DNA of 20,361 bases from a virus: positions 1-20,361 of the IMG/VR virus record IMGVR_UViG_3300042549_005421. One strand, 5' to 3'. The translations under genes and the position numbers were made by a program. The notes under the pieces were generated by a model. The model worked only from the letters and a program-made list of their open reading frames with translations. It was not told where the DNA came from and did no database searches. Numbering within the stretch: the stretch's first letter is position 1; each line of letters starts with the position of its first letter. Positions 144 through 17,134 of the stretch are shown here, piece by piece.

Positions 144-3100
144 TTAATTATATTCCATAGTAAATGGGAATGCCAAATATACATCACGTATTACATCGTT
201 AGGGTTGTTCGTAATATTAAATTTAACATATTTGTCCTTAGATTTTGCAATTAACATAATTTGATTATAAATTATGGTTGAAGTTGTAATTAGCGGTTCA
301 TTTAACTCAGTTTCCATTTTTATTTCATCTATAACATCAGTTTCTGTTATTCTGAATGTTTGTTTGTTAGGACTCACATAATCGTATTGGAATTCTGTAT
401 TTGTTTGTTGGTTTAAAACAGTCTCAACTATTGTGTTATTAGGACCGACACTACGTTTAACAATTTGGTAATTCCATGTTATAAGTCCTGGAATAATGTC
501 CCAACCGCCAGCAGAAGGATTAACATCTACCGTTAGAAGTGTTGCACCTCCAGCTAAATTATAAATTGTGTCCGAAGTTAAAGGTAATGGACCTGTTTGT
601 TGAGGTTGTGTATTAACATTAGGTGGTAATCCCGGTGGTGTTGATGGTGTTGATGGCATTAATTGTTCGGGATTATATGTAAACGCACTAAGACTTATCC
701 CATCACCATTTAATCCTTTAACAATTATTGGTTGTTGTTGAAGAATTGGAGTATTACTAAAAGGAACAACAACACTAATATTAAATTTATTAATAATTGT
801 TATATTATTTGTTGTCGTCACATTGTTAATTGTGACTGCGGTAACTTGGTCTAAATTATCACCAATAATAGTTAAAATAGTCCCACTAATACCAGTCAAT
901 GGTGAAAATGTATTTATCGTTGGAGGTGCACAAGTAACACTCACGCTAATTGTATTTAAATTATTAGGTGGATTAATTATACCATTATTTGTGTCCTCAA
1001 TTTTTTTAATTTGATCCTTATTATTCTTATTTAATTCTTTTGCGGTTGCAACAGGTAATCCAAATTCTCCTGCGGAGTTAAAGGCATTATCAAAGGTTTT
1101 TTGTAAGTCTTTATATTGACTCAAATTTTTATTAAAATATTCTTGTGATATTCCAGAAGGGACCGGCCATTCGCAAACATAATAATTGGTAATACCATAA
1201 TCTAAAGATTGGTTAGTAAATCTACTGATATTAGACCTTAATCTTGAAATCATAAACTGAATGAAGGACTTTATATTGGCAAAATGAGCAATTGGTTCTG
1301 ATGTCTCATCAGGTGTTAAATTAGGGATATTAACACAAGAATATTTGTTTTTAAGGAAAAACGAAACACTTTCACCATAACTATCACTCGTCAACGGAAC
1401 ATTTGCGTAATTATAATTATAACCATGAAACCTATTGGATTGGAATGTCTTAACATAACATATTAGATAAATTAAAACTTGCATATAAGGATCGTTTGTT
1501 TCTTCTTTAATCTTAGTTACAAAATCTTGAGGTGAAATAAATGTTGGAGTTGGTGTTTGAGCGTCTCCAAAATATATAAATTCGCTAGATAATTTAGTTG
1601 AACACGAGTTAATTGCCGCAGCACTATTATCAGCATATTGACTAACATATTTTGATTTATCAATATTTGTAATTCCAACTTCAGTAATATTATCTTTGGC
1701 GTTTAATACAATACTTTCAACTTTAGTTAATAGATTTTGATTTATACTTTGTAAGTATGAATCAATATGAGGTAAATCATAAATACTTTGTCTTGTTCCT
1801 GTAAATGTTGTTTCAAAAGAACCAGGAGTAATCACATGATTAACTTCAGTAATAAAATACGCACCATTAAATAATGGGATGTGTTGTAAATTAAAATACA
1901 TTGTAGGTTGTAATAACGCGTTACCGAGACATTGAACCGTACATTGATAACTTCTAGATTTATAATAATTATATAATCCGTTATTTTGAGTTGTAACATT
2001 TCTTCCGGAATATTGGTCATTCATATTTATTAGTGCTTGAATAGCCTCGGCGGTTGCCTTTCCAGTGTCCATTGAAACATTAATACCGTAAAAAACACTT
2101 TGATTTCTGGTTCCAACATCAACATTAAACCCTACACACCTATTAGATAACGCATAATCTTTTTTATTTGTACTATCTTCAATATTGGGATTGTCTCTAG
2201 TTGTCATTAAATCAAAAGAATCACTATTAAATCTAGGATTATTTTTATACGATTCAACATGTTCTGATGGTTTACCAACAAAAAAACAAACCATTTTTGG
2301 GCTTGAGTCTCTGTAATCAACATCAAGGTATGTTCCCCACATTTTGTCACCAAAATCTAAACTTCCTTCAATTCTCGGTGTGTTTATTCCTGACACATCT
2401 TGAATATTATAGAAATTAACATATGATGGTAATGGCATTACATTAAATTTATTTTTAATTAAAATACCGCTTAAAAATACGAAAACACTCATTGTCATAT
2501 TTAAAGATTCCTTATTAAGAGTATCTCTTAAATCAAAAATATCCAAAATTATTGTATCTCCAATGTTTCTAGATGCTCTATCTAAAAATAAAAAATCTTC
2601 AAATAATGTTTTACTTGTATAATCTGAACCAGCAATCCATTTATCATTTAACGCTTTAAACACTTCCCAAATTTCAACTTTACTTTGTTCTCCATCAACA
2701 GCACTCTTAATTACTCTTTCAGGTAATTCTTGTTGATTGGGGAGTTCTTTTCTTATTCGACTTAAAATTAAATTCAAAATATTGTCTTGAAAGTTAGAAT
2801 TTTTTGTCAAATAATCATTAAGACCTATTTTAAATTGAGCACTATTAATTGTTGGTTGTAACAATTTTTGAGTTGCATACATTTTAATTATCGGCGCTAA
2901 TAATCTTGTATTATTTGGGGTAAATTCAATGTTATTGTCAATGAAAAAATCTGTTATATATGAACCACTATCTGAATATTTTAAATTATTAATTGTTGAA
3001 AACCCTACTTCGGTTTCTAATGTCAACCAAGCATCGGGATAAGCTAATTTTGAATTTTGTAGTGTAATTGTATTTGATTTTGATGGTAAACTATTTCTAA

Positions 3101-6100
3101 CATAAGGACCAAATATAATTGGACTTACAATTGAATTCACACCACCTCCTTGTGCCAAATAAGAGTCCATAACTCTCCTATTATATTGGGAAGGGTTACC
3201 ATATCTTAATATAACATCATATTCCAAAAATGCCTTAATTGTACTAGAAAATGACCCCAGTTGTGTCCCTTCAATTGTGTTAAAATATTGTTCAGTAGTT
3301 AATGAAGTTGGTTTTGATTCGATTTCCATTAAATTTCTAAATAAGTATTGGAAATTTTTAAACAATCCATTTGGATCTGTAGGTGATTGCCCAATAGGAA
3401 TACTCACATCTGGCCCAAAATCAATATTTGCAATTGGTTTTGACCAATTCAAAAATTCTAATTCAAATTTATCTAAAATATCTTTATCAAATACTGAAAA
3501 AATTTCTTCAATTTTAGAATATTCATCGGTAATTAATAATTTAAATGGAGATTGTTTTGTGGTCCCAGTTTCAATCTTGTTTAAATATGAATCAGGTTGA
3601 GGTTTTATTATTTGGTCGTTGTTAAAATATCCATAATTTGGTGAAGACCATAGTAACCTAACAGATCCATTATAGATAGAATCATTATCAATAAATTGAC
3701 ATGTCGCCAAATTATTATTTATACATTCAATATTAAGTTGGTTAAATTGAGTTCCAAATGAAGGTATTACATAATATTTTAATGAATTTGTATTATTACT
3801 TGGGTTACATTTTGCACCTAAACCTACATTATTTCCCAACGCATCCGGAACAATTACAGACCAAGTTTGAATGGTTTGATATGGGAAAGTATTACCACTT
3901 GAAATTTGGATATTTGAGTTTGTGAAATTAAAAACTTGGAGGCCGTAATTAACACTTTCTTGAATCTCATTATCATCATATAACTGATATAAGTCAAAAC
4001 CATTATAAAACACATTAAAATCATTTATAACCTTAGGATAAAATCCAGTTTGTATTTGAACACTATTGTTATCGGTATTTTGTAATTTAATTTGTTTAAC
4101 ACCATCATAATTAAAGGTATATGTTTTAGTGTCTGAACTTAAAATAGGGTCAAAATTTAACCTATAATCAAAGTCTTTCCACGCCGAATCTAAAATATCA
4201 ACATTAGTTGTTTTATATGTTTTATATCTATACCATATGGAACCTATCTTCAATACCCACGCAAATGGTACCTTATGTATTGCACCAAATTTTTTGAAAC
4301 AAGAAGCAATGTAATCCAAATCAGTTGAAGCATCTAATGTTTTATATTTCTCTTTTAGAGATGCTAACGGTAATGAATTAATAAATAAATACGCAGCCTG
4401 AACATATGGATAACGATCATTTCTTCTCCAATTATTTACACCATTTTGTATTGCGTTAATAAAATAAGGTGTGTTTAACATTGATGTTGTAGTTTCAACG
4501 GAAAGATTATTATTTGGTGAAAAATAATTTACATACCCCTCAGTTGGTACAAAGAATATTGGGTCTTTTCTTAAATTATAAAATGCGGATAAACCAATTG
4601 TAGACACCTGATTTGTTGGATTTGAAACTCTAATGTAAGAGAAATTAGTGACTGGTCTATTTGTTGAATAATCATAGATACTATTAAAGTTTGAAATAAC
4701 ATCTCTATCTTCAAACACCGTTAAAACTCTATTTGTACTATACACCGCAGTTTTATTAGTATCTAAACTATTTGCCATATTTTTAGATACCCATTCCGAA
4801 TCAGTAAAAGGATAAGTGTCAATTATAATCGGATCATTAGTCACCAATTTAGTTAATTGTAATAAACCATCTGAAATTGCTTGTGTTTGGGGTTCTTTCC
4901 CTAAATCATTTAAACTTAAAATACTAAATGAATTCTCAGTTAAACTTTTTATATAAGGTGTTACATAAAAATCCCGAATAAAATCTTGGTATGCACGTCC
5001 AGTTCCTTGGTTTGAAATATTTTCTAAAAAAGTAGGATAATTTTCGGATGTGATATTGTAGTTCTTAAGTTTTAAAGTTAAGAATGGTGAACTAATCCCT
5101 AAACTTGTTGTAATATTATTGGACTCGGACTCTACAATTAAGTTAGATAATTGGTCAATTTGTTTATCATTTCCTCTAATAAAATTAGAATAATATGAAG
5201 TTAAAAATTGTCTTTCCCATATCTCATAAAAAAACTTAATTTCTTCTTTATTTACATATGCAATACCATTAGATGGGTATTCAATCGCATTGAAATTAAT
5301 TATATTTGTTGTGTTTTGACTATCAGTTGGTGGTTGGCTAACCGGTTGCAAAAATTTCTGACTAAGACCTTTCATATATTCCTCAACAAATTCAACTTCA
5401 GGCCACACATCAAACAACCAACCTTTAGTTAAATCAACATATTTAGGATCTCCAGGATATTTTAATTGAAATCTACCCTTTTTATCATCAGGTGTTTCAA
5501 CAAAAAATTGAGGCCATGGGTATATCGGTTGTTGCCCATTAACCAACCCTTGATTTTGATTTTTAGAATCTTGGGATATATTAAAATTTTTAACATTATC
5601 CACACCAAGAGCAGAAGATGGGTTATTTATAATAACATCTTTTCTCGTAGGATTGTACTTAACCTCCCAAGCCTTTGAATGAACTTCATCTAATAATCTT
5701 ATAAACGCCTCCGCCGATGCCATAATAACTGCAGAAATGTTTCTTACCGTAGGTTTAAATCCTATACCTGTTGATGAAGATTCAATTTTTTTCGCCAAAT
5801 CTTCAGTTATTTTAGTTTCAAATTCTAACAATTTTTTATTAGCTTCAGCTTCCATTTTGGACAATAGTTTCTGAAATGTGGTAAAAGTGAAAACAGGTGG
5901 ATTTAATATATTAGTATTGTTAGTTTCAACTCTAGTATCAGTACTATTCCTTTCTAAAACAAATCCGATTTGTTCCTTTATTAAATTTTTAATTGTCTCC
6001 TCATTTTCTTTAGTTGGTAATAAAACACCTGTTTGTGAGATTATTGATTTAGTTAAATCAACATCACTTATTGAAATTTGTTTTAAAAACGCATCATATG

Positions 6101-7451
6101 TTATACTGTTTTTAATAGGAGTCTTACTACCTTTACCTAAAGTCGGATTAGATTCTAATATTTTATTAAAATCTTTAACATACCCTTCAAGAAATGTTTT
6201 AGCTTCTTCTTTAACAGTTGGATTTTGAATAAATTCTTTTTTAAAAATATAAACCTCTTCACCCGTTACGTTCAAAATTATTGGTTTAGGGTTTAAATAA
6301 GTTTTAAACCAAGATTTATCTCCTGAATAAATTTGATTAAAATAATTAATCAAACCTTCTTTGTAATTCCTGATGTTAGTCAAAGGTTCAATTAATACCG
6401 GTGGATACGATTCTTGAATTGTTGGTTCAAAATTTTGTAACTTATTCATTAATTGGTTAACAGTCATTTCAGGAAAGTCGGGACTAATTAAACCTTTAGC
6501 TTTATATTCACTATAAACTTCAATTATTTTCTGATATCCTTTTTCACTAAAAAGTTCTGTAACAACATTATCTTTTGAATTTGTTGATTCTCTAGAGATT
6601 CCACTACTTTTAGATTGTGACTCAATATTTCCGTTTGAACTACCTTCTGGTGATGTTATTGATTTTGAAATATCAAAAGTTTTACCGTACATATGAGGAG
6701 TGGCAAACAAACTACCCATTGAAATTTCATTTAAAATATTAAATTTATATCCGATAAATTCTAATTCTATAGTGTAATTACCACTAAATGTATTAAATCT
6801 CGCATTAAATGTTTTAAGATTTAATTGGTATCTAACTGCTTGCCCATAATAACCTTTAAGTGTTAAATAAAATGGGCAATATGGTAAATTAAAAAATGCA
6901 GAATATGGTGAATTATCCCCAAGCTGAAACAACGCTCTCCCTTGTATGTCTTCTAAAACCATACTTACAGTAGGCACAAATGAACTATTAGTTTTGATAT
7001 TAATACTTGTAATCCCTAATAAACCATTGTCGATAGGAGAGTTATTCGGGTCAGTAAAAGACAATTTAGAATATGGTTGTTGACCATTTGGTGGGTTTAT
7101 TAGTTCTTCTTTTAATTGATTATCACCCAATCCATTTCTAGTATTTTTACCCGTTAATTCATCATAATAACCTGTAGTTAAATATGTATTTTCAGTTGGT
7201 CTTAAAAAATTCATTTTACTAACAGATATAGTTCTATTTCTGTCATTTGGAGCACCTCCAATAGATAGTTTTGTTCTTTCCACAATTTCAGCTTCAAGAT
7301 TAACAAACATTACCAAATTTTCATGGTCAACTAATCTCTCTCTAATATTACCAAAAGTATCTATGGTCTTGTTTGGATCAACAACAACAATATTTTGATA
7401 AGATTCAACATAAATATTTCCACTTTTATCCCCTTGTAATCTACCTGCCAT
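144..7451 (-). CDS. Giant baseplate hub-like structural protein with a C-terminal IPT/TIG domain
   Basis: About 2435 residues, counting from the ATG at 7451-7449. A longer TTG start at 7472 is possible but less likely, because the ATG already overlaps the stop of the preceding gene by 11 nt. Residues about 130-245 look like a beta-barrel hub/tube domain (motifs GITSINIKTNSSF, YSAFFNLPYCPFYLTLKGYYG). Residues about 1830-1900 resemble the second hub domain of gp27/late-control-D proteins (YFNLQHIPLFNGAYFITEVNH, then PGSFETTFTGTRQ). Residues about 2174-2264 match an IPT/TIG immunoglobulin-like fold (INTFSPLTGISGT, TIIGDNLDQV, ending SAFTYNP). A Pro-rich linker (about 2265-2292) and a beta-rich tail of about 140 residues follow. 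Residues about 1970-2085 vaguely recall a peptidoglycan-hydrolase domain, but I cannot confirm this. T4 gp27 is only about 390 aa, so this is a fused or greatly expanded protein. A hub role is an inference from these motifs and the neighbours. Confidence 0.62.
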   Translation of the reverse strand: MAGRLQGDKSGNIYVESYQNIVVVDPNKTIDTFGNIRERLVDHENLVMFVNLEAEIVERTKLSIGGAPNDRNRTISVSKMNFLRPTENTYLTTGYYDELTGKNTRNGLGDNQLKEELINPPNGQQPYSKLSFTDPNNSPIDNGLLGITSINIKTNSSFVPTVSMVLEDIQGRALFQLGDNSPYSAFFNLPYCPFYLTLKGYYGQAVRYQLNLKTFNARFNTFSGNYTIELEFIGYKFNILNEISMGSLFATPHMYGKTFDISKSITSPEGSSNGNIESQSKSSGISRESTNSKDNVVTELFSEKGYQKIIEVYSEYKAKGLISPDFPEMTVNQLMNKLQNFEPTIQESYPPVLIEPLTNIRNYKEGLINYFNQIYSGDKSWFKTYLNPKPIILNVTGEEVYIFKKEFIQNPTVKEEAKTFLEGYVKDFNKILESNPTLGKGSKTPIKNSITYDAFLKQISISDVDLTKSIISQTGVLLPTKENEETIKNLIKEQIGFVLERNSTDTRVETNNTNILNPPVFTFTTFQKLLSKMEAEANKKLLEFETKITEDLAKKIESSSTGIGFKPTVRNISAVIMASAEAFIRLLDEVHSKAWEVKYNPTRKDVIINNPSSALGVDNVKNFNISQDSKNQNQGLVNGQQPIYPWPQFFVETPDDKKGRFQLKYPGDPKYVDLTKGWLFDVWPEVEFVEEYMKGLSQKFLQPVSQPPTDSQNTTNIINFNAIEYPSNGIAYVNKEEIKFFYEIWERQFLTSYYSNFIRGNDKQIDQLSNLIVESESNNITTSLGISSPFLTLKLKNYNITSENYPTFLENISNQGTGRAYQDFIRDFYVTPYIKSLTENSFSILSLNDLGKEPQTQAISDGLLQLTKLVTNDPIIIDTYPFTDSEWVSKNMANSLDTNKTAVYSTNRVLTVFEDRDVISNFNSIYDYSTNRPVTNFSYIRVSNPTNQVSTIGLSAFYNLRKDPIFFVPTEGYVNYFSPNNNLSVETTTSMLNTPYFINAIQNGVNNWRRNDRYPYVQAAYLFINSLPLASLKEKYKTLDASTDLDYIASCFKKFGAIHKVPFAWVLKIGSIWYRYKTYKTTNVDILDSAWKDFDYRLNFDPILSSDTKTYTFNYDGVKQIKLQNTDNNSVQIQTGFYPKVINDFNVFYNGFDLYQLYDDNEIQESVNYGLQVFNFTNSNIQISSGNTFPYQTIQTWSVIVPDALGNNVGLGAKCNPSNNTNSLKYYVIPSFGTQFNQLNIECINNNLATCQFIDNDSIYNGSVRLLWSSPNYGYFNNDQIIKPQPDSYLNKIETGTTKQSPFKLLITDEYSKIEEIFSVFDKDILDKFELEFLNWSKPIANIDFGPDVSIPIGQSPTDPNGLFKNFQYLFRNLMEIESKPTSLTTEQYFNTIEGTQLGSFSSTIKAFLEYDVILRYGNPSQYNRRVMDSYLAQGGGVNSIVSPIIFGPYVRNSLPSKSNTITLQNSKLAYPDAWLTLETEVGFSTINNLKYSDSGSYITDFFIDNNIEFTPNNTRLLAPIIKMYATQKLLQPTINSAQFKIGLNDYLTKNSNFQDNILNLILSRIRKELPNQQELPERVIKSAVDGEQSKVEIWEVFKALNDKWIAGSDYTSKTLFEDFLFLDRASRNIGDTIILDIFDLRDTLNKESLNMTMSVFVFLSGILIKNKFNVMPLPSYVNFYNIQDVSGINTPRIEGSLDFGDKMWGTYLDVDYRDSSPKMVCFFVGKPSEHVESYKNNPRFNSDSFDLMTTRDNPNIEDSTNKKDYALSNRCVGFNVDVGTRNQSVFYGINVSMDTGKATAEAIQALINMNDQYSGRNVTTQNNGLYNYYKSRSYQCTVQCLGNALLQPTMYFNLQHIPLFNGAYFITEVNHVITPGSFETTFTGTRQSIYDLPHIDSYLQSINQNLLTKVESIVLNAKDNITEVGITNIDKSKYVSQYADNSAAAINSCSTKLSSEFIYFGDAQTPTPTFISPQDFVTKIKEETNDPYMQVLIYLICYVKTFQSNRFHGYNYNYANVPLTSDSYGESVSFFLKNKYSCVNIPNLTPDETSEPIAHFANIKSFIQFMISRLRSNISRFTNQSLDYGITNYYVCEWPVPSGISQEYFNKNLSQYKDLQKTFDNAFNSAGEFGLPVATAKELNKNNKDQIKKIEDTNNGIINPPNNLNTISVSVTCAPPTINTFSPLTGISGTILTIIGDNLDQVTAVTINNVTTTNNITIINKFNISVVVPFSNTPILQQQPIIVKGLNGDGISLSAFTYNPEQLMPSTPSTPPGLPPNVNTQPQQTGPLPLTSDTIYNLAGGATLLTVDVNPSAGGWDIIPGLITWNYQIVKRSVGPNNTIVETVLNQQTNTEFQYDYVSPNKQTFRITETDVIDEIKMETELNEPLITTSTIIYNQIMLIAKSKDKYVKFNITNNPNDVIRDVYLAFPFTMEYN

Positions 7452-7764
7452 AATAATAAAAATATTCGCCAATTGCCGATTTATAATCTTGTAGTGAAGG
7501 TAATAACGGAAAAGGAACGATTAACACCGCACCGTCATATATGTTATTTTCTAATCCGCCGAATTGGGGGTTTGCTTGTAAAATTAACCAACCAAAAAAA
7601 GGTGAATTATAAAATTCTTGTGAAACAACATCCAATCTACTTCTACCTACTTTGTAAATGTATGTTTTGTCCGTTGTTTTTTGAGCAATATTAACAAAAG
7701 GAACTATGGTTTGTTCCCCATTAATATTAAAATCACTATATCTATTATAATATTGATATGACAT
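7441..7764 (-). CDS. 53: LysM-domain baseplate protein, T4 gp53-like
   Basis: A 107-residue protein. Residues about 34-88 form a LysM-like module (TYIYKVGRSRLDVVSQEFY, then FFGWLILQANP and a closing G-x-V-L-I-V-P strand). This pattern is seen in T4 gp53 baseplate wedge proteins and in LysM tail proteins of contractile injection systems, where it clamps inner tube/hub and wedge parts together. The ATG at 7764-7762 overlaps the TAA of the upstream 1685-aa gene by one base (TAATG), which implies translational coupling. Its own TAG lies 11 nt inside the next gene. T4 gp53 is about 196 aa, so this is a compact form containing little beyond the LysM module. There is no signal peptide or membrane segment. 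The LysM fold is well supported; the exact equivalence to gp53 is less so. Confidence 0.75.
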   Translation of the reverse strand: MSYQYYNRYSDFNINGEQTIVPFVNIAQKTTDKTYIYKVGRSRLDVVSQEFYNSPFFGWLILQANPQFGGLENNIYDGAVLIVPFPLLPSLQDYKSAIGEYFYYYGR

Positions 7765-10700
7765 TAGCTAAGTTTTGCTTTTGATATAAATACCCCAATA
7801 GGGTTTTGGTCATTCCAAGTTTTATTATTTGTGTTTTGATTTTCAATCCAACCTAAACCTTGTATTAATTTTTGTTGAGCTGGTGTATTAGCGTCCTCTG
7901 TATCGTAAGTAAATGTTCTTTTCTTTTTTAAATTAAATGGAGTATATTTCAAAAAGTCTTTTAATTTTTCTTTTTCCATATATGAAATAAATTCTTTAGT
8001 TATATTATTTTCTTCTTCAAACGCCGGTTTTGCAATCGTTAACCAATATTTATCAAACTCCGTACTTATTTTATCATTTTCACCCTTAGTAATCAACGCG
8101 GTATTAGTTATAATATTACCAATTAACGCATTTTTAAATGACTCATACTTCTTAGAATCTAATACATCATCAGATACTATCATATAAACTCTTCTAAAAA
8201 CATAACCACTATTACTATCAAATAGTGAGTCTTTACTAAATGGATTGAATACTTTCTCAGTTTCAAGTTTATATTCTGGTTCAAAAACCAAAACACCTTC
8301 ATATTTTTCCTTATTTACAGAATATGTAAATCCGGTTGGTTGCCATATTATATCATTAAAATCTTTAATACCACTTTTAATCTTTAAAACATCGTTTTCA
8401 AATTCAATTAAAGTATTTGATGCTCCATTAGAGCTTGGATCAACTTCAGTTGTCCCTGATATTAAATATGAAGTTACTTTTCCATCCGCAGTTTGATACC
8501 CGTCAGTACCTGTATTTGTTACCGCACTATAACTAATGGTATTTAATCTTCCAATATAACCAATATAGTTTTGTTGAACTCCCACCATGCCATTTATTAT
8601 ACCTGTAATCGCATTTTGGAACGAACCTTTTTTATTATTAATATAATTTGAATAATTTTCCTCGACTTGATTCACAAGTCTATTTGTAAAATTTTGTTTC
8701 GAGATGAAATCAATAAACCCTTCATTTTCATTTTTAATATCTTTTACCAGTTGTTTAAATATTTGATCAATTCTTTTTTCCAAATTATTTGTTTTACCAA
8801 ATAAATAAACATCAGATGATTCGTCAAGATAAAATTTACCTTTTTGATACATTCTTTCCAACATCCATTGTTGACGAACGGCATTATTATATTGATTAAC
8901 AATTTCCTTATTTTTGTTAACAACATTGGTAAAATAATTTTGAGTTTCTTCAACAACTTTATCCATAAATGAACTATAATTAATTATTCCTGTTTGTCCA
9001 CTATTAGTAACAATATTAGTTACAACAGCTCCAATAGGTTTATCGTTAGTTTGACCATTATTTGGAGCGGCTTGGTTAATTGTTGGAGGAGCAACATTAC
9101 TTGCCGCCAGTTTTAAAAATTCAGCATCAATAACTTTGTAACTTAAATCAGTCGAATCCGCTCTATCATCATAAATTTCAGTATTTGCATAATAATTAAA
9201 TGTTAACGCATTTTGTAATTTATCAACAGACTCTTTTAATCCACTACCTCCGACAAAATTAAAACTTAATGTTACATCCGCAATCATAGGTTGAACACCA
9301 ATACCTTCCGGATTTATATCCAAATTTTCATATTTAATACTTAATCCTGTTGGAATAATTTTCGTGTTGTAAAAATCTCCAACCCTTAATATCAATACCG
9401 GAGGAGCTCCAAATGATGTATTAGTTGCATTATTATAATCAAGTGTTTCTCTACCATTATCTACTTTAACTGTTGGTATTGTATCACCAGGTCTCATACA
9501 TTGTTGTAAAAATGTTAGCCTTGAATTAAGCCCTTCTGGCGTCATTGAATGGAAACCGGGTTGAAAAAACTTTAATTTATCTCTTAAATTATCAAACACC
9601 ATTGGAGTCTCTTGTTTTATCACCTCAAAATAATCACACTCGGAAAGTAAAGATCTTAACACTCTTTTACTTATATTATCTCTTTGAGTTACTCTTGTTT
9701 CAAGTGTTGGTACCGTCTCGCTTTTAGTAACAACATTTCCAACAATTACGGTTCTTTCTTTTATCGGTAAAACAGGCGGTGGAGATTTTAAAGTTGAAGT
9801 TATTTTTGATATATATGCTCTTCTACAAGCCATCGCACTTGTGGTAAAAACTTCTTCATTCACTTTATTACCATCTCTTCCATCTTTATCGGTACAATTA
9901 ATCACCCCTTTATCGAAGAATTTTTTGGTATTTTCATCATAAGATTGAGGTTGAGCTCTTTCACCTAAAGCGGTTCCTGGAACAACATTTAGTCTTTTAG
10001 GTGTACCATTAACATATTTCTCCATTCTAGGATTACCTGTTATATAACCGATAGCACTATTAATTCTCCTTTGTGCAAGAGAATCGTTATAAATTAAATC
10101 AGCTTTCGCCGAAGTTGTTGCATCAACTACGATAGTAACAGTACCTTCACTATTACCTATAAATTGCCTTTCTAATTCATTAATTAAATCATCAATACCC
10201 TCTTTATTTTTAGTTATTACCGTATTAAAAAATAATGTTGTATTACCCCCACCTTTATTAATAGATTGTTCTTGATATAAATTTATCGTTGGTCCTGAAA
10301 CATATGACGTATATAAATTATTAAAATTTTGATTATTTGGTTCATTTGGTTTAGGAGTATCATTTTCAAAATAAAAGGCCCTATTAGTAAATTGTTTAAA
10401 ATTATTTTCAGGTGAACTTCCAGTACCTCCATCACCCCCACTGGCACCACCACTATTATCACTTGACACTTGAGGTATATCACTAATTGTTTTAACTGCA
10501 TATTCAATTTGTTCTTTTGTTAACTCTTTAGAACTAAGAGCTGTTTGAAGCTGAAACAAATCGTTTGGAGATATTGTATAATATTTTTTCGCCAATTCAT
10601 ATAAATCATATTTTCTACATCCAGCAAAAAATGATTCCAAGATACTATCAATTCTTGTTTTATTTGTTTCATCACCAAGAACTTTATTGACGATAACATT

Positions 10701-12821
10701 TAATACCGATGGATGGTCAACAACAATTTTCCAACTTATTGACCCCGTTCTATTGGTGTTTTGATATGTATATATTGGTTCCGGTCTCCCAATAAAGACA
10801 TTATCTTTCCACGCAGGTCTTGTATCTTCACTAAATGTTAAACCATATGGTGGGAACCACATAACTCTACCTCCATTTGGCCCTCTTTCACAAACCGGTA
10901 AATCTGAAACCGTAAATCCAGGACTGTTTGATGTTGCCCAAGCTAAGTTTTCAATTGAGAACATATACTTTTTTGCCTTAGCATTATCAAACGACCCAAT
11001 TATATTTGTTGAATCTTGTCCACCCTCTTGTTTGTTTGGAACTATGTTTAAATTATATGTTTTATCTAAAACTGAATATGAAAATCTTCTTCCTTCAGTA
11101 ACAATTCCATCTGTTTTTTGTAAATCATTATATTGTAGATATGGGATATCTTTAGCAAAAACTCTACAATATTCGGTTCCAACTTCTTGACCTATTGACC
11201 CAACATATGTTAACACTCTAGAACCTTTGGTTAGTTCTTTGTAACCATCATTAAAAACTTTAGAAACTTGATCAATAGCATTACCAACATGTTGTAATCT
11301 TTTACCTCCTTGTGGTTGACTATTAATTATTCTTTGGGTTTCATCAAGTATTGAACCTTCTTTAAAAACTCTCTCGGTGGATTCTGTTGAGTTATATGAT
11401 GATGGTTTAAAATCATCGTCTTGATTAGTAACAACCCCTCCTACACCAACTTTTTTACCCGCATTTCCTTTATATTTAGGTGAAACCCAAGTAAAACCAC
11501 CTTCAATTCCACCACCATTACTATATGTTGGCCCGTTTGCTCCCAACCTAATCTCTTTACTAGGTCCTTCATATAATTGAGCAAGTTCTTGAGGTCCGTA
11601 AACAGGTGATTGTTGTTCATTACCAAAAGAATCTACCGGTAATTCTCTACTTGGTGAGAATACTCTTGATGGATCAGATGTTGTTGACCCAACATAAAAA
11701 TTAGCATTATTTGTTTGGGTTCCAACAATTGCGCCGCCCAATCTATCTAATAATGTTCTATCGTAGTTTGGTTTATACTTATTAAAATTAATATTTTTCC
11801 ATAAGATAGACTTTTGTCCTCCTCCGGTATTATTATAAAAAATTTGAGATCCTGTCTTTCCCGCACCTAATAAGTTACTAACAAAATTACCCACAGCCGC
11901 GATTGGGTTGGCAAGTAATGATTGGGCGATAGTACTAGGTCTTGGAGGATTAATATTTGGGTCGAAATAGGAACCGGGTATTAACGAAAAAGGAAGTTCA
12001 CTTCCCGCCAATCTAAGTGAAAAGTCTGCTGCAGCAACTATAGGGTTAGACGGGACGGTAATTTGATAATTGGGTTCAATTAATGGAACTCTACCCGTCA
12101 AAATATTAACAACATTCGTACTACTATTAATATTTAAAAAATTAGCCCTTCCAATAGTCTCTCTAATAATTGCTCTACCAATTCTTTCTTGGAATTCTCT
12201 CCTAAGCGTTCGAGCACCTAGTCGGGCAATAAATGAGTCTTCACTCAAACGACCATTACTACCCTGTGGGTTTGATGACAATAATATCGATAATGGTGAA
12301 TAAGATGACGAATTAAAAGTTGTTGGGTATGGCTGATTGTTATATAAATTTGGAATTCCTCCGGTAAGTCCATTATTTATTGAATCCGGAGACACAATCG
12401 CATCTCCAGCGTCTAATAGTTGAAGACTGTTACTACCATAAGCATTTAATGGTTGCCATGGTGGTGCAATACCCGGAAAACCAATCTTCGCAGCTATTTG
12501 AGCATCTTCTAAAAGTTTTGCGTCTTGTTGTCCAGGACCATATTCCCCTTTATTAGGAGCAATAGTATTAACCGGTAAATCGGGTAATTGTTCGTACCCT
12601 CCATCATTACCCCATTTATTAAGTGGGTATAATTTATCAGCAAAAAATGGTGTATCTATAAAAGAGTCCGGACTATCAACAGGAACTAAATCAGATTGAA
12701 CAATCTCATATGTTGTTGGTGGCACCACTTTAGTTGGAGATTTGGAATATGGCGCCAAATTTCTCGTAATAAGTTTTTTTCTAAACCCTTCGGTACTAAT
12801 ATAATCTAATGGACTACCCAT
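7764..12821 (-). CDS. Large baseplate/tube-initiator-like protein with an embedded OmpA-like domain
   Basis: A 1685-residue protein. The N-terminal 500 or so residues are rich in Pro, Gly, Asn and Ser and look extended. Residues about 660-750 contain RVMWFPPYGLTF, IGRPEPIYTYQNTNRTG and SWKIVVDHPSVLN, reminiscent of tube/tube-initiator beta-barrels in contractile tails. Residues about 1090-1220 hold a second such block (GFHSMTPEGLNSRLTFLQQC, then PPVLILRVGDFYNTKI). Between them, at about 815-1005, is an OmpA C-terminal-like domain: YNDSLAQRRINSAIGYI matches the NxxLSxxRAxxVxxYL helix, GERAQP matches the GxGExxP loop, and ACRRAYI matches the terminal NRRVxI strand. The Asp of the usual GHTD motif is not kept (DATT here). 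Residues about 1280-1400 look helical. The start ATG at 12821 follows a TATAAATA box. I infer a structural baseplate role from the position after the tape measure and before gp53 and the hub; the exact T4 counterpart (gp48/gp54 type) is uncertain. Confidence 0.6.
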   Translation of the reverse strand: MGSPLDYISTEGFRKKLITRNLAPYSKSPTKVVPPTTYEIVQSDLVPVDSPDSFIDTPFFADKLYPLNKWGNDGGYEQLPDLPVNTIAPNKGEYGPGQQDAKLLEDAQIAAKIGFPGIAPPWQPLNAYGSNSLQLLDAGDAIVSPDSINNGLTGGIPNLYNNQPYPTTFNSSSYSPLSILLSSNPQGSNGRLSEDSFIARLGARTLRREFQERIGRAIIRETIGRANFLNINSSTNVVNILTGRVPLIEPNYQITVPSNPIVAAADFSLRLAGSELPFSLIPGSYFDPNINPPRPSTIAQSLLANPIAAVGNFVSNLLGAGKTGSQIFYNNTGGGQKSILWKNINFNKYKPNYDRTLLDRLGGAIVGTQTNNANFYVGSTTSDPSRVFSPSRELPVDSFGNEQQSPVYGPQELAQLYEGPSKEIRLGANGPTYSNGGGIEGGFTWVSPKYKGNAGKKVGVGGVVTNQDDDFKPSSYNSTESTERVFKEGSILDETQRIINSQPQGGKRLQHVGNAIDQVSKVFNDGYKELTKGSRVLTYVGSIGQEVGTEYCRVFAKDIPYLQYNDLQKTDGIVTEGRRFSYSVLDKTYNLNIVPNKQEGGQDSTNIIGSFDNAKAKKYMFSIENLAWATSNSPGFTVSDLPVCERGPNGGRVMWFPPYGLTFSEDTRPAWKDNVFIGRPEPIYTYQNTNRTGSISWKIVVDHPSVLNVIVNKVLGDETNKTRIDSILESFFAGCRKYDLYELAKKYYTISPNDLFQLQTALSSKELTKEQIEYAVKTISDIPQVSSDNSGGASGGDGGTGSSPENNFKQFTNRAFYFENDTPKPNEPNNQNFNNLYTSYVSGPTINLYQEQSINKGGGNTTLFFNTVITKNKEGIDDLINELERQFIGNSEGTVTIVVDATTSAKADLIYNDSLAQRRINSAIGYITGNPRMEKYVNGTPKRLNVVPGTALGERAQPQSYDENTKKFFDKGVINCTDKDGRDGNKVNEEVFTTSAMACRRAYISKITSTLKSPPPVLPIKERTVIVGNVVTKSETVPTLETRVTQRDNISKRVLRSLLSECDYFEVIKQETPMVFDNLRDKLKFFQPGFHSMTPEGLNSRLTFLQQCMRPGDTIPTVKVDNGRETLDYNNATNTSFGAPPVLILRVGDFYNTKIIPTGLSIKYENLDINPEGIGVQPMIADVTLSFNFVGGSGLKESVDKLQNALTFNYYANTEIYDDRADSTDLSYKVIDAEFLKLAASNVAPPTINQAAPNNGQTNDKPIGAVVTNIVTNSGQTGIINYSSFMDKVVEETQNYFTNVVNKNKEIVNQYNNAVRQQWMLERMYQKGKFYLDESSDVYLFGKTNNLEKRIDQIFKQLVKDIKNENEGFIDFISKQNFTNRLVNQVEENYSNYINNKKGSFQNAITGIINGMVGVQQNYIGYIGRLNTISYSAVTNTGTDGYQTADGKVTSYLISGTTEVDPSSNGASNTLIEFENDVLKIKSGIKDFNDIIWQPTGFTYSVNKEKYEGVLVFEPEYKLETEKVFNPFSKDSLFDSNSGYVFRRVYMIVSDDVLDSKKYESFKNALIGNIITNTALITKGENDKISTEFDKYWLTIAKPAFEEENNITKEFISYMEKEKLKDFLKYTPFNLKKKRTFTYDTEDANTPAQQKLIQGLGWIENQNTNNKTWNDQNPIGVFISKAKLS

Positions 12822-12872: not shown

Positions 12873-14696
12873 TTATTTTGTTTTTTCAAGTTCTTTACTT
12901 TTTGATGACCAGTATTCATAAATCATTCTTTTAAAACTTGGAGATTCAAAATAAGTTGTTAATTGTTGTTGACTAACTCCTGGAGGAGCATCAACTTTAA
13001 TTGTTATAACTCCACCTAAATCAACTTTTGAATTAACAGTCTGAACACCACTAGTTTTTTCCGAAGGACTATTAAAACTTCTAGTCCCAAAAATACTTGT
13101 TTTACTTATTGATTCTTGTCCAACAACTTTAGGTAAATTTGCAGTCTTTTTATATAATTCCTCTCCGGTAATTTCTTTTCTAAAAAATTTTTCAACATCA
13201 CTAGATCCCTTAATTGATTTTGCCGTTTCATCTAAAATTTCTTTTATTATTTTTTTACTTTCTTCAGCAAGATTGCTAGCTCCTCCAACAAATTTTTCTT
13301 TAATTTTATCAAAATTACTTCCAAAATCTTTTATATCAATTTTATTTGAATTAATATCTTGAAATAAATTTTTCATTTTATCTATTGCTCCCGTGACATC
13401 TTTTCTAATTTCACCCGTTTTAGGCATCTTTTTCTGTCCAATATCAGAAAAAGTTTTAACAATATTTGTAACTCCTTCAAGATTTGAAATTAAAGGTTGG
13501 GAGGATACTGCTCCGAACTTACCAGCATTTAAAATTGCGTTCATATCTGATGCAATTGATTTTAAAAACCCTAATTGACTTCTTTGAATATCTTCAACGG
13601 TTTTTGGTGCGTCTTTTTGTTGTTTAATTAATTCATCAAATTCGTCTTGATTTAAATTTTGTAGGTCTTTTTTAGTTCCATCGTTTAATTCAACCTCATA
13701 TTTACCACCTTCACCCATCTTGGCAATATTAGCCAAATATTGTTTATCTTCTTCATTTTTAAACTTTAATCCAGCAAAACTTACTTGAGACAATCTTTTG
13801 TCTAAGTCTGCTGCGGCTAAAGCTGATTTTGATAATGAACCTGATGTCAATCCTGCGGCTTCTTCCATTTCTCTCAAAATTAAAACCCCTTGAGTATTTA
13901 TTTTAAATGAATTAGTTTCTTTACTAAAACTTACAAATTTTTGCCCTACTCTAGCCAAACTATTTTGTAATCCGGTTGGGTCGGTTAACGATTTGTTAAA
14001 TAACGCAAATGGATCAACTAAATCACCAGCGACAACCCCTAATCTTTGAAATGCCGCGGCAACATTAATTGCCTTTTCAGGGTTTAACATGTCATCTGTA
14101 AACCGAAAAGTTTCACTCATATCAATCCTTAACATTGACGCTTGTGCTGCCATTTTTGCAAGTCCTTGAACCCCACCGACAAACTGATAACGATTCATTT
14201 TATCCATATTGTCGGAAACGTTTTTCATAACCGTAACAGCATTTACCCCGACACTTTGAATATATTGTATTGAGTTTTCTAAATTAACACCAATTTGTGA
14301 TGTTTCATACCCAGCATTTTTAAAATTTTCGGTTAAATCCTGAGCACTAATACCTAAAACTTGACTTGCGGCAAATAGTTTACTAACAACATCTTCATTT
14401 TCAATAACATTTCGGTTAGAAGCTTTGGCTATTTGACTAATTGTTGTGTTAACATCATCAAATGAACCCCCTAATTTAGCAATTCCAACAGATGAATCGG
14501 CAAATGCTCTCTGCATTTCCAAAATTCTACTCCTACCTAAACCAAAATTTTTATTTAATAAATTTGCAGAACCGACCATCTTGTCCAATGAAATTGCAAG
14601 ACTCTCTACTGGTGATAATATCTCATTAACTATATTTTTAAACTCCTTAAGATCGTTTAATCCGTTACCAAGGTCTGGGGTCTTTTCCTCTTGCAT
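12873..14696 (-). CDS. Tail tape measure protein
   Basis: 607 residues, close to the 590 of T4 gp29. The protein is mostly helical, rich in Lys/Glu/Asn/Ala and without long membrane segments. Residues about 1-110 are heptad-like (LKEFKNIVNEILSPVESLA). The middle contains tape-measure-like helical repeats with regular Ala/Gly/Asn spacing (AAAFQRLGVVAGDLVDPFAL). The C terminus ends in a compact beta/alpha element, VDLGGVITIKVDAPPGVS, then a helix with FKRMIYEYW, similar to the conserved ends of many tape measure proteins. It lies just after the chaperone pair, the usual position for a tape measure. At about 1.5 angstroms per residue it predicts a tail near 90 nm, about T4 length. It would line the inside of the tube and be released on infection. 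The start ATG at 14696 follows an AT-rich box and has no Shine-Dalgarno sequence. Confidence 0.75.
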   Translation of the reverse strand: MQEEKTPDLGNGLNDLKEFKNIVNEILSPVESLAISLDKMVGSANLLNKNFGLGRSRILEMQRAFADSSVGIAKLGGSFDDVNTTISQIAKASNRNVIENEDVVSKLFAASQVLGISAQDLTENFKNAGYETSQIGVNLENSIQYIQSVGVNAVTVMKNVSDNMDKMNRYQFVGGVQGLAKMAAQASMLRIDMSETFRFTDDMLNPEKAINVAAAFQRLGVVAGDLVDPFALFNKSLTDPTGLQNSLARVGQKFVSFSKETNSFKINTQGVLILREMEEAAGLTSGSLSKSALAAADLDKRLSQVSFAGLKFKNEEDKQYLANIAKMGEGGKYEVELNDGTKKDLQNLNQDEFDELIKQQKDAPKTVEDIQRSQLGFLKSIASDMNAILNAGKFGAVSSQPLISNLEGVTNIVKTFSDIGQKKMPKTGEIRKDVTGAIDKMKNLFQDINSNKIDIKDFGSNFDKIKEKFVGGASNLAEESKKIIKEILDETAKSIKGSSDVEKFFRKEITGEELYKKTANLPKVVGQESISKTSIFGTRSFNSPSEKTSGVQTVNSKVDLGGVITIKVDAPPGVSQQQLTTYFESPSFKRMIYEYWSSKSKELEKTK

Positions 14697-14750: not shown

Positions 14751-14918
14751 GTTATCTTCAAGCCATTTATCTAATAAATACTTTCTTACAAATAATGGTA
14801 TTTTTTCAAAATCACCATAACTAATATTCATTAATTTGTTTAAATAATAAAATTCATCTATTTGGTTTTTCCTATAATCAGAAGAAAGGACGAAAAAACT
14901 CGACCCCAAACCCAACAT
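14739..14918 (-). CDS. Small overlapping tail-assembly chaperone-like protein (59 codons)
   Basis: A 59-codon frame overlapping the last 41 nt of the gp26-type gene in the +1 frame. It opens with an ATG at 14918-14916, directly after the in-frame triplets TAA TAG TGA, and ends at TAA 14741-14739. After a short N-terminal lead the peptide contains IDEFYYLNKLMNISYGDF, then EKIPLFVRKYLLDKW. This 'hydrophobic helix, then Y-x-D/E-h, then I/L-P-x-x-x-R-x-x-h-x-x-x-h' layout is typical of the C-terminal part of tail-assembly chaperones upstream of tape measures (the T of lambda G/GT, and the small partner of T4-like gp26). It lies between the gp26-type gene and the tape measure, exactly where such a partner belongs. 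It could be made from its own ATG, by coupling to the upstream stop (TGA 14880-14878), or by +1 frameshifting at a TTTTTTC run (14892-14898). Reality of the ORF is fairly secure; the function is inferred. Confidence 0.65.
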   Translation of the reverse strand: MLGLGSSFFVLSSDYRKNQIDEFYYLNKLMNISYGDFEKIPLFVRKYLLDKWLEDNKKD

Positions 14919-15621
14919 TCACTATTAGGGTTTCTCCGGACGGGGCCATTATTGATTTATTCATATCTAATCTAGGTTCATTTTCATTCATAAATTTTCT
15001 AATAAATTTAGAATCTGAAATAGGCATTGTTTCTATAAATTTAGAAATAACAGATTTATCTGTAGATCCATCAATTTCAACAATTTCTTTTTGTAATCTC
15101 CAAGTTATTTTTGGAACAACTCTACCTTGAGGGTATGTATCCGAAAGTCTATTAATTTCCATTATCTCACCATAATTAAGAGGTTTTATTTTAATTGTTA
15201 CTTGAGATTTTGGTAATTGGAACATAAATGTTCCATCTTCATTTGGATTTTGACCTTTTATAACATTTAGTTCATCTATTAAAACTGAAGTTTTAAATGG
15301 TTTTTTCGTGACAGGGTCGGTAAGATTTAATGTTATTTCGGGACCAAATCCGGTATTTCTTAAAAAAATTAATATTGCTTCAATATCTCCTTCAAGTAAA
15401 TCCTCAACCTTAACATCAGGTTCATATATTTTGGATCTTAGTAAATTAGTTGTGAAATCAACCCCTCCACCCATTATAATATTTTCGTCTGATGCGGTAA
15501 GATAACCGACTTTTAAAGATTTCTTTTTATTTTTATAAAAAAGTCCTTGTGATGGTAATTGAACCACATCATGTGGTAGTGTAAAATTTTCTTGACCGTA
15601 GTCTCTTGATTGTGTTTCCAT
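14878..15621 (-). CDS. 26: gp26-type baseplate hub / tail-assembly chaperone protein
   Basis: A 247-residue protein that opens with a signature of the T4 gp26-like 'T4 baseplate' family: LPHDVVQLPSQGLFYKNKK, then VGYLTASDENIIMGGGVDF. The middle (residues about 75-160) is built of beta strands and short helices (LEGDIEAILIFLRNTGFG, PLNYGEIMEINRLSD). In T4, gp26 acts with gp28, gp29 and gp51 in hub and tape-measure assembly and is regarded as a chaperone more than a final structural part. T4 gp26 is 208 aa, so this one is slightly larger. Context agrees, because tape measure and baseplate genes follow. Its ATG at 15621 sits only 4 nt past the T-run of a strong terminator, so its transcript must come mostly from readthrough. 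Its end overlaps the small chaperone-like gene in the +1 frame. There is no membrane or signal segment. Confidence 0.72.
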   Translation of the reverse strand: METQSRDYGQENFTLPHDVVQLPSQGLFYKNKKKSLKVGYLTASDENIIMGGGVDFTTNLLRSKIYEPDVKVEDLLEGDIEAILIFLRNTGFGPEITLNLTDPVTKKPFKTSVLIDELNVIKGQNPNEDGTFMFQLPKSQVTIKIKPLNYGEIMEINRLSDTYPQGRVVPKITWRLQKEIVEIDGSTDKSVISKFIETMPISDSKFIRKFMNENEPRLDMNKSIMAPSGETLIVNVGFGVEFFRPFF

Positions 15622-15704: not shown

Positions 15705-16193
15705 TCAATAAACCAATACACATCTATCCATCCTTAATGTTGCCGTAATATCTGCCAAAGCGTCTTGACTATAACTTAAAGCACCAAAATCAACGTCAGT
15801 TAAAAATGTTCCATAGAGAATCCATTTTTCAACCACAACTCCTGTTGGGTCTAACATTTCAAGGTCTATGTCTTTCTTATAACCCGCAGCATAACCCATA
15901 CGACCGGTAACAGATTCGGCATGTAGACGAACCCACTCCATAAGTGCTTGAGCAGCTGAAGGACCAATCGGGTCACGGAATTTAACCTGAATTGTGTCCC
16001 AATTAAATCTACCTGCAACGAATGTTGAGGTATTTAAAAACTGAATTTCAGTTGGTGCAATTTTAATACTTGGTCTTTTAGCGGTTTCAACAAACCATTC
16101 ATTTATCCCTAAGCTGGATGGAAACCTTAAAATGAACCGATTCTGTCTTTTTGGTTCATAAGGTATGGGCATTTTCATTAATAAATCAGCCAT
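15705..16193 (-). CDS. 19: Tail tube protein, T4 gp19 family
   Basis: 162 residues, almost the same as T4 gp19 (163). It is a single-domain beta-barrel protein that stacks as hexameric rings to form the inner tube through which DNA passes. Family features visible: an N-terminal MADLLMKMPIPYEPKRQNRF that leads into the first strand, a central FNWDTIQVKFRDPIGPSAAQ, then a helix with ALMEWVRLHAESVTGRMGYA, and a closing GALSYSQDALADITATLRMD with a final beta strand. It lies downstream of the sheath, with the HAD gene in between, and is followed by a strong terminator, as suits a very abundant product. Its base composition is less AT-biased than that of its neighbours, as expected for high expression. 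The ATG at 16193 is preceded by an A-rich leader without a Shine-Dalgarno sequence. Stop is TGA. Confidence 0.93.
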   Translation of the reverse strand: MADLLMKMPIPYEPKRQNRFILRFPSSLGINEWFVETAKRPSIKIAPTEIQFLNTSTFVAGRFNWDTIQVKFRDPIGPSAAQALMEWVRLHAESVTGRMGYAAGYKKDIDLEMLDPTGVVVEKWILYGTFLTDVDFGALSYSQDALADITATLRMDRCVLVY

Positions 16194-16289: not shown

Positions 16290-17120
16290 CTATTTATATA
16301 ACTTTTTAATGCCTCCAGCCGTAGAATAAGTCTTAACTATATTATCTGGTTTATCTTTAAAATGTTTACTCATAGCTTCTACGTTTTTTATATCATCATC
16401 TGAAAATCCTATAACCGGTTCTTTTGGTATAAAATTATTTGAAATATCATTTTTAATAAATGCCCTTTTATTTATAATTCCAGACATTCCTTTTATATAT
16501 GATACAAAATCTTCCATAGCTTTAACTTTTAATTCTTCAGGATTTGATACTCCTTCTTCATTACCAAAACTAACAGGGTGATACTTATTTAACTCTAAAT
16601 ACGATTTAATTAATTCGTCGTCACTCATTTCATCTTCATTAACAAACGACCTATATTTTTTTAAATTTTTAATTAATGTGTCTTTATCTATACCATTAAA
16701 ACCACTTATAATGTAATTATATATCGATTGTTTTAATGTTTCAGGATTATGACCTCTAGCCGTTATAATTGCAAAAATTGACCCATTATTTATCGCTTCT
16801 CTGAAGTCGTTAAACGCTGGACCTTCTTTAGCCCTCATAGAGTCAATCAAAAAATCTTTATCACCTTCCGTCCTAAAATTCCTAAATGGTTCATCAGCAT
16901 ACCCAACAACCACTTTTCCTTTGTATTGTATGGGAGTTTTACCTAAATCATGTCTATACTCTGCAAAATCATCAGTACTCATACCAATTTCTTCACCATC
17001 TTCAGTTTTTAACATAATTTTAGTTGGCATATGAACAATATTATCATCCCAATCAAAGGCATAATATTTCATATCTGGTGTTCCCTCGGGATTAAATCCT
17101 TCTTTAATCTGTTTTTTCAT
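16290..17120 (-). CDS. HAD-superfamily phosphatase-like protein
   Basis: 276 residues from the ATG at 17120-17118. A TTG at 17129 would add three residues but starts only 5 nt after a hairpin. Using the longer numbering, HAD motif I is YYAFDWDDNIV with the nucleophile and acid Asp pair at residues 26 and 28. Motif II is IITARGHN with Thr at 123, motif III Lys is probably 201 or 203 (EELKVKAMEDF), and motif IV is IGFSDDDIKNVEAM with acids at 244-246. All catalytic positions are present, so it is probably an active Mg-dependent phosphohydrolase, on a nucleotide, sugar or end-group substrate that I cannot name. The long cap-like stretch (about 31-115) and helices at 145-185 are additions. It sits between sheath and tube, so it would be made late. 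It ends in TAG, whose bases overlap a TATAAATA box. It could alternatively modify or process a tail component, but I see no evidence for that. Confidence 0.78.
   Translation of the reverse strand: MKKQIKEGFNPEGTPDMKYYAFDWDDNIVHMPTKIMLKTEDGEEIGMSTDDFAEYRHDLGKTPIQYKGKVVVGYADEPFRNFRTEGDKDFLIDSMRAKEGPAFNDFREAINNGSIFAIITARGHNPETLKQSIYNYIISGFNGIDKDTLIKNLKKYRSFVNEDEMSDDELIKSYLELNKYHPVSFGNEEGVSNPEELKVKAMEDFVSYIKGMSGIINKRAFIKNDISNNFIPKEPVIGFSDDDIKNVEAMSKHFKDKPDNIVKTYSTAGGIKKLYK
16291..16298 (-). promoter_or_regulatory. Exact TATAAATA octamer at the end of the HAD gene
   Basis: The minus strand reads TATAAATA, identical to the T4 late promoter -10 element, extended upstream by TA. It covers the last codons and most of the TAG stop of the HAD gene, and is about 97 nt before the tube ATG. 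Transcription starting here would give an untranslated, A-rich leader of roughly 85-90 nt for the tube. The AT-rich composition makes chance octamers common, so confidence is moderate. Confidence 0.42.
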
Positions 17121-17134
17121 ATTTGGCAATTAAA

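Follow-up and report, generated by a model that had tools for sequence, protein, structure and literature searches.

An OmpA/Pal/MotB-like domain inserted in a probable tail-tube cap protein of uncultured T4-related phages

The window, that is, the whole stretch of DNA analysed here, comprises 20,361 bases and holds an IMG/VR virus fragment (IMGVR_UViG_3300042549_005421) in its entirety. The large genes are all encoded on the minus strand, in the order sheath, 279-aa protein, tube, hub-like protein, tape-measure-like protein, 1685-aa protein, gp53-like wedge protein and 2442-aa protein (Table 1). The 1685-aa protein, which is the subject of this study, has relatives of 1649-1706 aa in related contigs. 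Pfam matches to PhoU_div, GIY-YIG and Csm1_B within this protein fell under the cut-off and were discarded.

Table 1. Features of the window, with coordinates, strand and the basis of each assignment.
Feature	Position	Strand	Basis
1685-aa tail/baseplate protein holding the inserted domain	7764..12821	-	Open frame; relatives in related contigs; flanked by TMP-like and gp53-like genes
Lineage-specific insertion, residues ~706-1093, splitting a tube-cap-like domain	9543..10706	-	hhalign junction test against immuto domain
OmpA/Pal/MotB-like domain, residues 814-1011	9789..10382	-	hhalign, Pfam, AlphaFold2, Foldseek, VIA-align 2
Ser904, at the place of the DAP-binding Asp, invariant	10110..10112	-	93/93; alignment to OmpA Asp
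Asn912, DAP-contact position, invariant	10086..10088	-	93/93; motif spacing as for PorE Asn584 and TagL Asn494
Leu915, DAP-contact position, invariant	10077..10079	-	93/93; counterpart of TagL Leu497
Arg919, position of the DAP-carboxylate-binding Arg, invariant	10065..10067	-	93/93; counterparts PorE Arg591 and TagL Arg501
Cys976, first invariant Cys, within C-x-D-x-D stretch	9894..9896	-	93/93
Cys999, second invariant Cys, immediately ahead of last strand (ACRRAYI)	9825..9827	-	93/93
Tube-cap-like domain, first half, residues 648-705	10707..10880	-	hhalign to immuto C-terminal domain, 94.4%, E 8.9e-8
Tube-cap-like domain, second half, residues 1094-1188	9258..9542	-	Weak alone, E 0.005-0.008; joins first half without the insertion
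gp53-like baseplate wedge protein, LysM-like by eye	7441..7764	-	phrog_7145, E 0.0013; hhalign to immuto counterpart 95.9%, E 5.3e-9
607-aa tape-measure-like protein	12873..14696	-	Weak Pfam TMP_2, E 0.06; place of annotated immuto tape measure gene
Baseplate hub-like protein	14878..15621	-	phrog_150, E 3.5e-11
Tail tube protein	15705..16193	-	phrog_4542, E 2e-25
Tail sheath protein, open at contig end	17171..20359	-	phrog_23, E 5.8e-54

Two further genes can be described briefly. The 279-aa gene (16290-17129, minus strand), located between sheath and tube, begins by eye like a HAD phosphatase (YAFDWDDNIVHMPT); it has no match in Pfam or PHROG. The 2442-aa protein (144-7472, minus strand) has a far smaller positional counterpart in Flavobacterium phage immuto, a 938-aa protein annotated as a carboxypeptidase (L049:27315-30128). 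Kinship between these two proteins was considered and set aside, the best hhalign value (1.2%) being unusable. The C-terminal part of the 2442-aa protein appears IPT/TIG-like by eye; a Pfam search found nothing there and recognised no lytic domain in the protein.

The preliminary description of this DNA had proposed an OmpA-like pattern at about residues 815-1005 of the 1685-aa protein. The motifs that it quoted are present, namely YNDSLAQRRINSAIGYI at residues 911-927, GERAQP at 953-958 and ACRRAYI at 998-1004, and profile comparison, the Pfam matches of relatives and a confident structural model together bear out a domain at residues 814-1011. A family profile of 56 distinct sequences aligns by hhalign to a bacterial OmpA-family domain profile at 89.8% (E 1.8e-6). 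The latter has 31 rows, namely 30 domains from four genomes and E. coli K-12, plus the E. coli OmpA query. When the whole protein was tiled against it, only two of 15 tiles aligned, both containing the core (residues 801-1013, 89.9%; 901-1113, 67.6%); the remaining 13 scored 1.1% or less. Against the PDB, the domain alignment profile gives PA0833 (E 0.15) and OmpA (E 0.64) as its first two matches.

Single-sequence searches give a fainter picture. The first scan for relatives yielded 44 loci, and 23 domains were aligned. OmpA is the commonest Pfam match among these domains (11 of 23, counting matches to E 1; best E 0.0013), with none above the curated cut-off. PF00691 matches seven of 20 records, always solely within the ORF of ~1,680 aa and likewise never above the cut-off. 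The window's own sequence has no PF00691 match and, used alone, no useful match in the PDB. PHROG matches of the domain are scattered, none being common to more than six of the 23 relatives. Because the Pfam matches stay under the curated cut-off, the domain is classed as OmpA-like and not as a curated member of PF00691.

Structure prediction, which had been suggested as a check in the preliminary description, returned an OmpA-type fold. The AlphaFold2 model of the domain, made with 23 sequences, has a mean pLDDT of 84.7 and a pTM of 0.85, and its predicted α/β fold is that of the OmpA/Pal/MotB family. VIA-align 2 superposes it on Pal (4pwt) with a Z of 9.6 and an rmsd of 3.0 across 119 residues. 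Among the 50 VIA-align 2 entries listed, 39 are titled as OmpA, Pal, MotB, YfiB, TagL, PorE, OprF or PA0833 type; among the remaining 11 are ZorAB, a T6SS wall anchor, Legionella OMC entries and three 'bacterial signalling' entries, which we take to be YfiB. Foldseek finds nothing in the PDB at E ≤0.001, and its TM-scores are low; its best PDB match is the C-terminal domain of PorE (6top, E 1.6e-3). Among viral proteins, the domain best matches an uncharacterised one from an uncultured Caudovirales phage (E 4.8e-4). In a larger predicted structure, covering residues 500-1260, the mean pLDDT is 46.5 and only the OmpA part is reliable (mostly 75-90).

It is very improbable that this likeness is convergent or spurious, with an α/β domain only resembling OmpA. 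The weak single-sequence statistics, the window's own row and a Foldseek E that reaches only 1.6e-3 would fit such a reading, but the profile-profile match with its silent control tiles, the Pfam OmpA matches among relatives, and the VIA-align 2 result (Z of 9.6, and mostly OmpA-type titles among the 50 entries listed) all argue otherwise. The OmpA/Pal/MotB-type domain at residues 814-1011 is real and goes beyond chance similarity.

This domain sits in an insertion of ~390 residues that splits one tube-cap-like domain. The corresponding gene place in immuto is occupied by a 716-aa protein, the C-terminal domain of which aligns with residues 648-714 (94.4%, E 8.9e-8) and, directly further along, weakly with residues 1135-1188. 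If residues 706-1093 are omitted, one alignment of 135 columns to the immuto domain results (97.0%, E 9e-11, score 72.6). This junction was the best among 40 tried; all 18 control joins gave lower scores, between 54.4 and 58.5. The alignment to immuto is continuous once the insertion is omitted, and the flanking blocks are therefore one split domain. The preliminary description had placed the domain between two tube-initiator-like blocks. The insertion stands, whereas the two blocks become one by homology to immuto; hhalign found no match between the 1685-aa family and the T4 gp48 and gp54 profiles.

Tail proteins with an uninterrupted homologue of the split domain occur in immuto (716 aa), Microcystis phage Mel-JY01 (2255 aa) and the uncultured phage LR756508, in each case without an OmpA insertion. 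In the Mel-JY01 homologue (L048:26062-32826), the shared C-terminal domain is preceded by an extended series of YDTKYIPESSIFDWDGKRE-like repeats. In immuto-type sequences without the insertion, the corresponding loop has 35-46 residues (50/50). The insertion profile (A4) matches all 12 records carrying the family and none of seven relatives without it, and neither PF00691 nor the domain profile finds anything in immuto-type relatives that lack the insertion. Among the relatives examined, the insertion is restricted to the present lineage.

The 1685-aa protein is probably a cap at the tail-tube base. This likely place follows from gene order and weak homology. The order sheath, tube, hub, tape measure, 1685-aa protein and gp53-like protein is common to the window and immuto, and in both the gene of interest directly follows the tape-measure-like gene, the window's own tape measure match being weak. 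This may be compared with T4, in which genes 48 and 54 follow 29. The adjoining gp53-like gene is clearly shared with immuto (hhalign 95.9%), and phrog_230, 'baseplate tail tube cap', is matched by one of 38 immuto-domain relatives (E 0.0018). In T4, gp48 and gp54 are each present in about six copies.

The lineage consists of large, uncultured aquatic, T4-related phages with contractile tails, and it is widespread. The preliminary description had proposed searching related phages for the same insertion, which is present in hundreds of IMG/VR contigs. When the domain alignment served as query, 260 stretches matched, of which 187 were relatives (80 kept), and a scan with divergent members found at least 540 among at least 599 (80 kept). 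Two of the contigs with the insertion reach 317 kb (L353) and 309 kb (L360), and the insertion therefore occurs in jumbo phages. In bacterial and archaeal genomes, 116 stretches matched the search pattern and none was confirmed as a relative; tblastn against named phages, with the whole protein and with a relative's domain, gave no match. Among the best ten matches listed for the terminase of contig G001, the nearest are LR756508, immuto and other T4-type phages (24-29%). The cyanophage marker psbA (PF00124) is absent from all 14 records searched, and tRNA genes in parts of contig G001 gave no help towards a host. Aquatic jumbo phages of up to 307 kb, with predicted hosts mostly in the Bacteroidota, are described in PMC12619734.

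Conservation was assessed in a set of 93 sequences: of 201 loci, 195 had a domain match, 92 remained after fragments and identical copies were removed, and the window was added. Pairwise identity in this set has a minimum of 27% and a mean of 45%, and the domain is among the most variable parts of the 1685-aa protein. Seventeen columns are invariant, namely Tyr817, Asn820, Pro823, Tyr840, Tyr849, Asn872, Ser904, Asn912, Leu915, Arg919, Leu944, Gly953, Glu954, Cys976, Met997, Cys999 and Arg1000. Within the 54-column OmpA core (residues 877-930), the sole invariant columns are Ser904, Asn912, Leu915 and Arg919, in the family of 56 as well as in the set of 93. The equivalents of these four contact DAP in PorE and TagL, the reported residues being Asp576, Asn584 and Arg591 in PorE (PMC7192894), and Asp486, Asn494, Leu497 and Arg501 in TagL (PMC8253398). 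A naive draw of four from 54 columns would hit exactly the DAP-contact set with a probability of 3e-6, a figure that ignores ancestry and the OmpA-wide conservation of Asn, Leu and Arg and serves as a guide only.

The NxxLSxxR helix keeps its Asn, Leu and Arg in all 93 phage sequences and in all 31 rows of the bacterial set; the preliminary description was right that the Arg is kept. It had assigned the place of the DAP-binding Asp to a Thr, which requires correction. The counterpart is Ser904, the last residue of DATTS (900-904): it lies 15 residues from Arg919, a spacing shared by E. coli OmpA, and in the hhalign alignment the TD of OmpA is paired with the TS of the phage domain. Asp is absent from the phage domain, with Ser in 93 of 93 sequences, and present in 30 of the 31 bacterial rows, the exception being L328, a ZorB relative. 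The residue after Arg919 is Ile (88/93) or Val (5/93), where OmpA has Ala.

Ser at this position has a precedent in ZorB of Zorya type II (8vvi). According to PMC11890865, the isolated domain of this protein binds peptidoglycan, its Ser143 is the counterpart of Asp188 in ZorB of type I, and changing Ser143 disrupts binding. Because this Ser is needed for binding in ZorB, the exchange of Asp for Ser is compatible with wall binding and need not mean degeneration. The degenerate use of the fold that had been considered is weakened, given four pocket positions invariant in 93 sequences and a Ser-type ZorB that binds peptidoglycan. In contrast to the phage tail protein, ZorB is a membrane stator of a defence system, and a closer kinship was not detected (hhalign of A1 against L328 alone, 0.3%).

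In general, the phage domain shares with OmpA C-terminal, Pal and MotB domains (PF00691) the fold, the order of strands and helices, the Asn-Leu-Arg pocket at the same spacing, the Gly-Glu after the third strand and the Arg-Arg at the last strand. It differs from them by Ser for Asp, by Ile or Val for the Ala after Arg, by extra residues with two Cys ahead of the last strand, and by being embedded in a phage tail protein. Two relatives serve large machines. The C-terminal domain of PorE (6top) is an OmpA-type domain which holds a large envelope machine, type IX secretion, to the wall; unlike the phage domain, it keeps the Asp and belongs to a periplasmic lipoprotein. TagL, the peptidoglycan anchor of type VI secretion, serves a contractile-tail machine, but it is part of the attacking cell's membrane complex, outside the baseplate itself, and also keeps the Asp. 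Within baseplates, a wall-binding type of fold is seen in T4 gp53 and other wedge proteins, although there it is LysM rather than OmpA and forms a separate small protein or a fusion. No description of an OmpA-type domain in a phage baseplate was found in the open-access literature searched; the OmpA in PMC8705779 is the bacterial Loa22.

Strict conservation of the pocket, apart from one swapped residue, points to a tail that may hold on to the wall as the DNA is injected. The best single explanation, for which the chances seem evenly balanced, is that a virion-borne OmpA-type domain at the tail tip binds peptidoglycan. In such a mechanism, the 1685-aa protein, a probable tube-base cap with one loop interrupted by an OmpA/Pal/MotB-type module, would be a virion part at the tube base, in about six copies like T4 gp48 and gp54. 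Contraction would carry the domains into the periplasm with the tip of the tube, where they would bind the peptide stem of peptidoglycan in the manner of the Ser-type ZorB, and this may hold or orient the tip at the wall during DNA injection. The more specific picture of a wall clamp, in which about six Ser-type domains on the tube base dock the tip on stem peptides during penetration, is tentative and falls a little short of an even chance. Against a grip on the wall stand the missing canonical Asp and the Ile or Val in place of Ala; conservation of Asn, Leu and Arg could alternatively reflect folding.

The main rival, which is possible though less than probable, is structural co-option: within the baseplate, the OmpA fold would serve for packing or docking and never touch peptidoglycan, and its pocket would accommodate a carboxylate or the C-terminus of an adjacent phage protein. 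A precedent is the LysM fold of gp53 in T4 and others, which PMC10811340 and PMC10966104 describe as packing among the hub, the tube and sheath initiators and the wedge; a gp53-like gene adjoins the present one. The uniform Ser at the Asp position is in line with this, and the two invariant Cys together with Tyr817, Asn820 and Pro823 outside the core could suit a fixed protein interface. However, a pure scaffold would need no exclusive invariance of exactly the four ligand-contact columns in the core, and the domain lies in one of the least conserved regions of the protein, unlike a tightly packed baseplate part. This divergence, faster than that of the rest of the protein, combined with restriction to one lineage and a pocket that is conserved yet changed at one residue, might instead point to a secondary receptor-binding module for some host periplasmic or surface ligand other than the peptide stem, either another wall component or a host protein that pairs with Pal-like domains. 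This is improbable: receptor-binding parts usually vary at the binding site, whereas the pocket is invariant here, and nothing positive speaks for another ligand.

Contractile tails are usually explained to cross peptidoglycan by means of lytic enzymes on the spike or hub. If binding to the wall is the function, this crossing would gain a holding step from a domain that forms part of the tube base. A phage baseplate would then contain an OmpA module that binds peptidoglycan, a phage-side counterpart of the Zorya stator, which senses the wall via the same Ser-type pocket. The domain is a small, probably soluble fragment that can be tested directly, and the pocket type in common with ZorB II leads to a testable prediction as to which OmpA-like domains without Asp still bind the wall.

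The two Cys that had been noted in the preliminary description, Cys976 and Cys999, both precede the last strand and are invariant, and they might form a disulfide. A pair of Cys is likewise found in E. coli OmpA, where it follows the GES motif and precedes the last strand, at other distances from the Arg-Arg pair. The first phage Cys lies in a conserved C-x-D-x-D loop (window 9860-9900, minus strand), which by eye resembles a cation-binding loop; metal binding has been considered.
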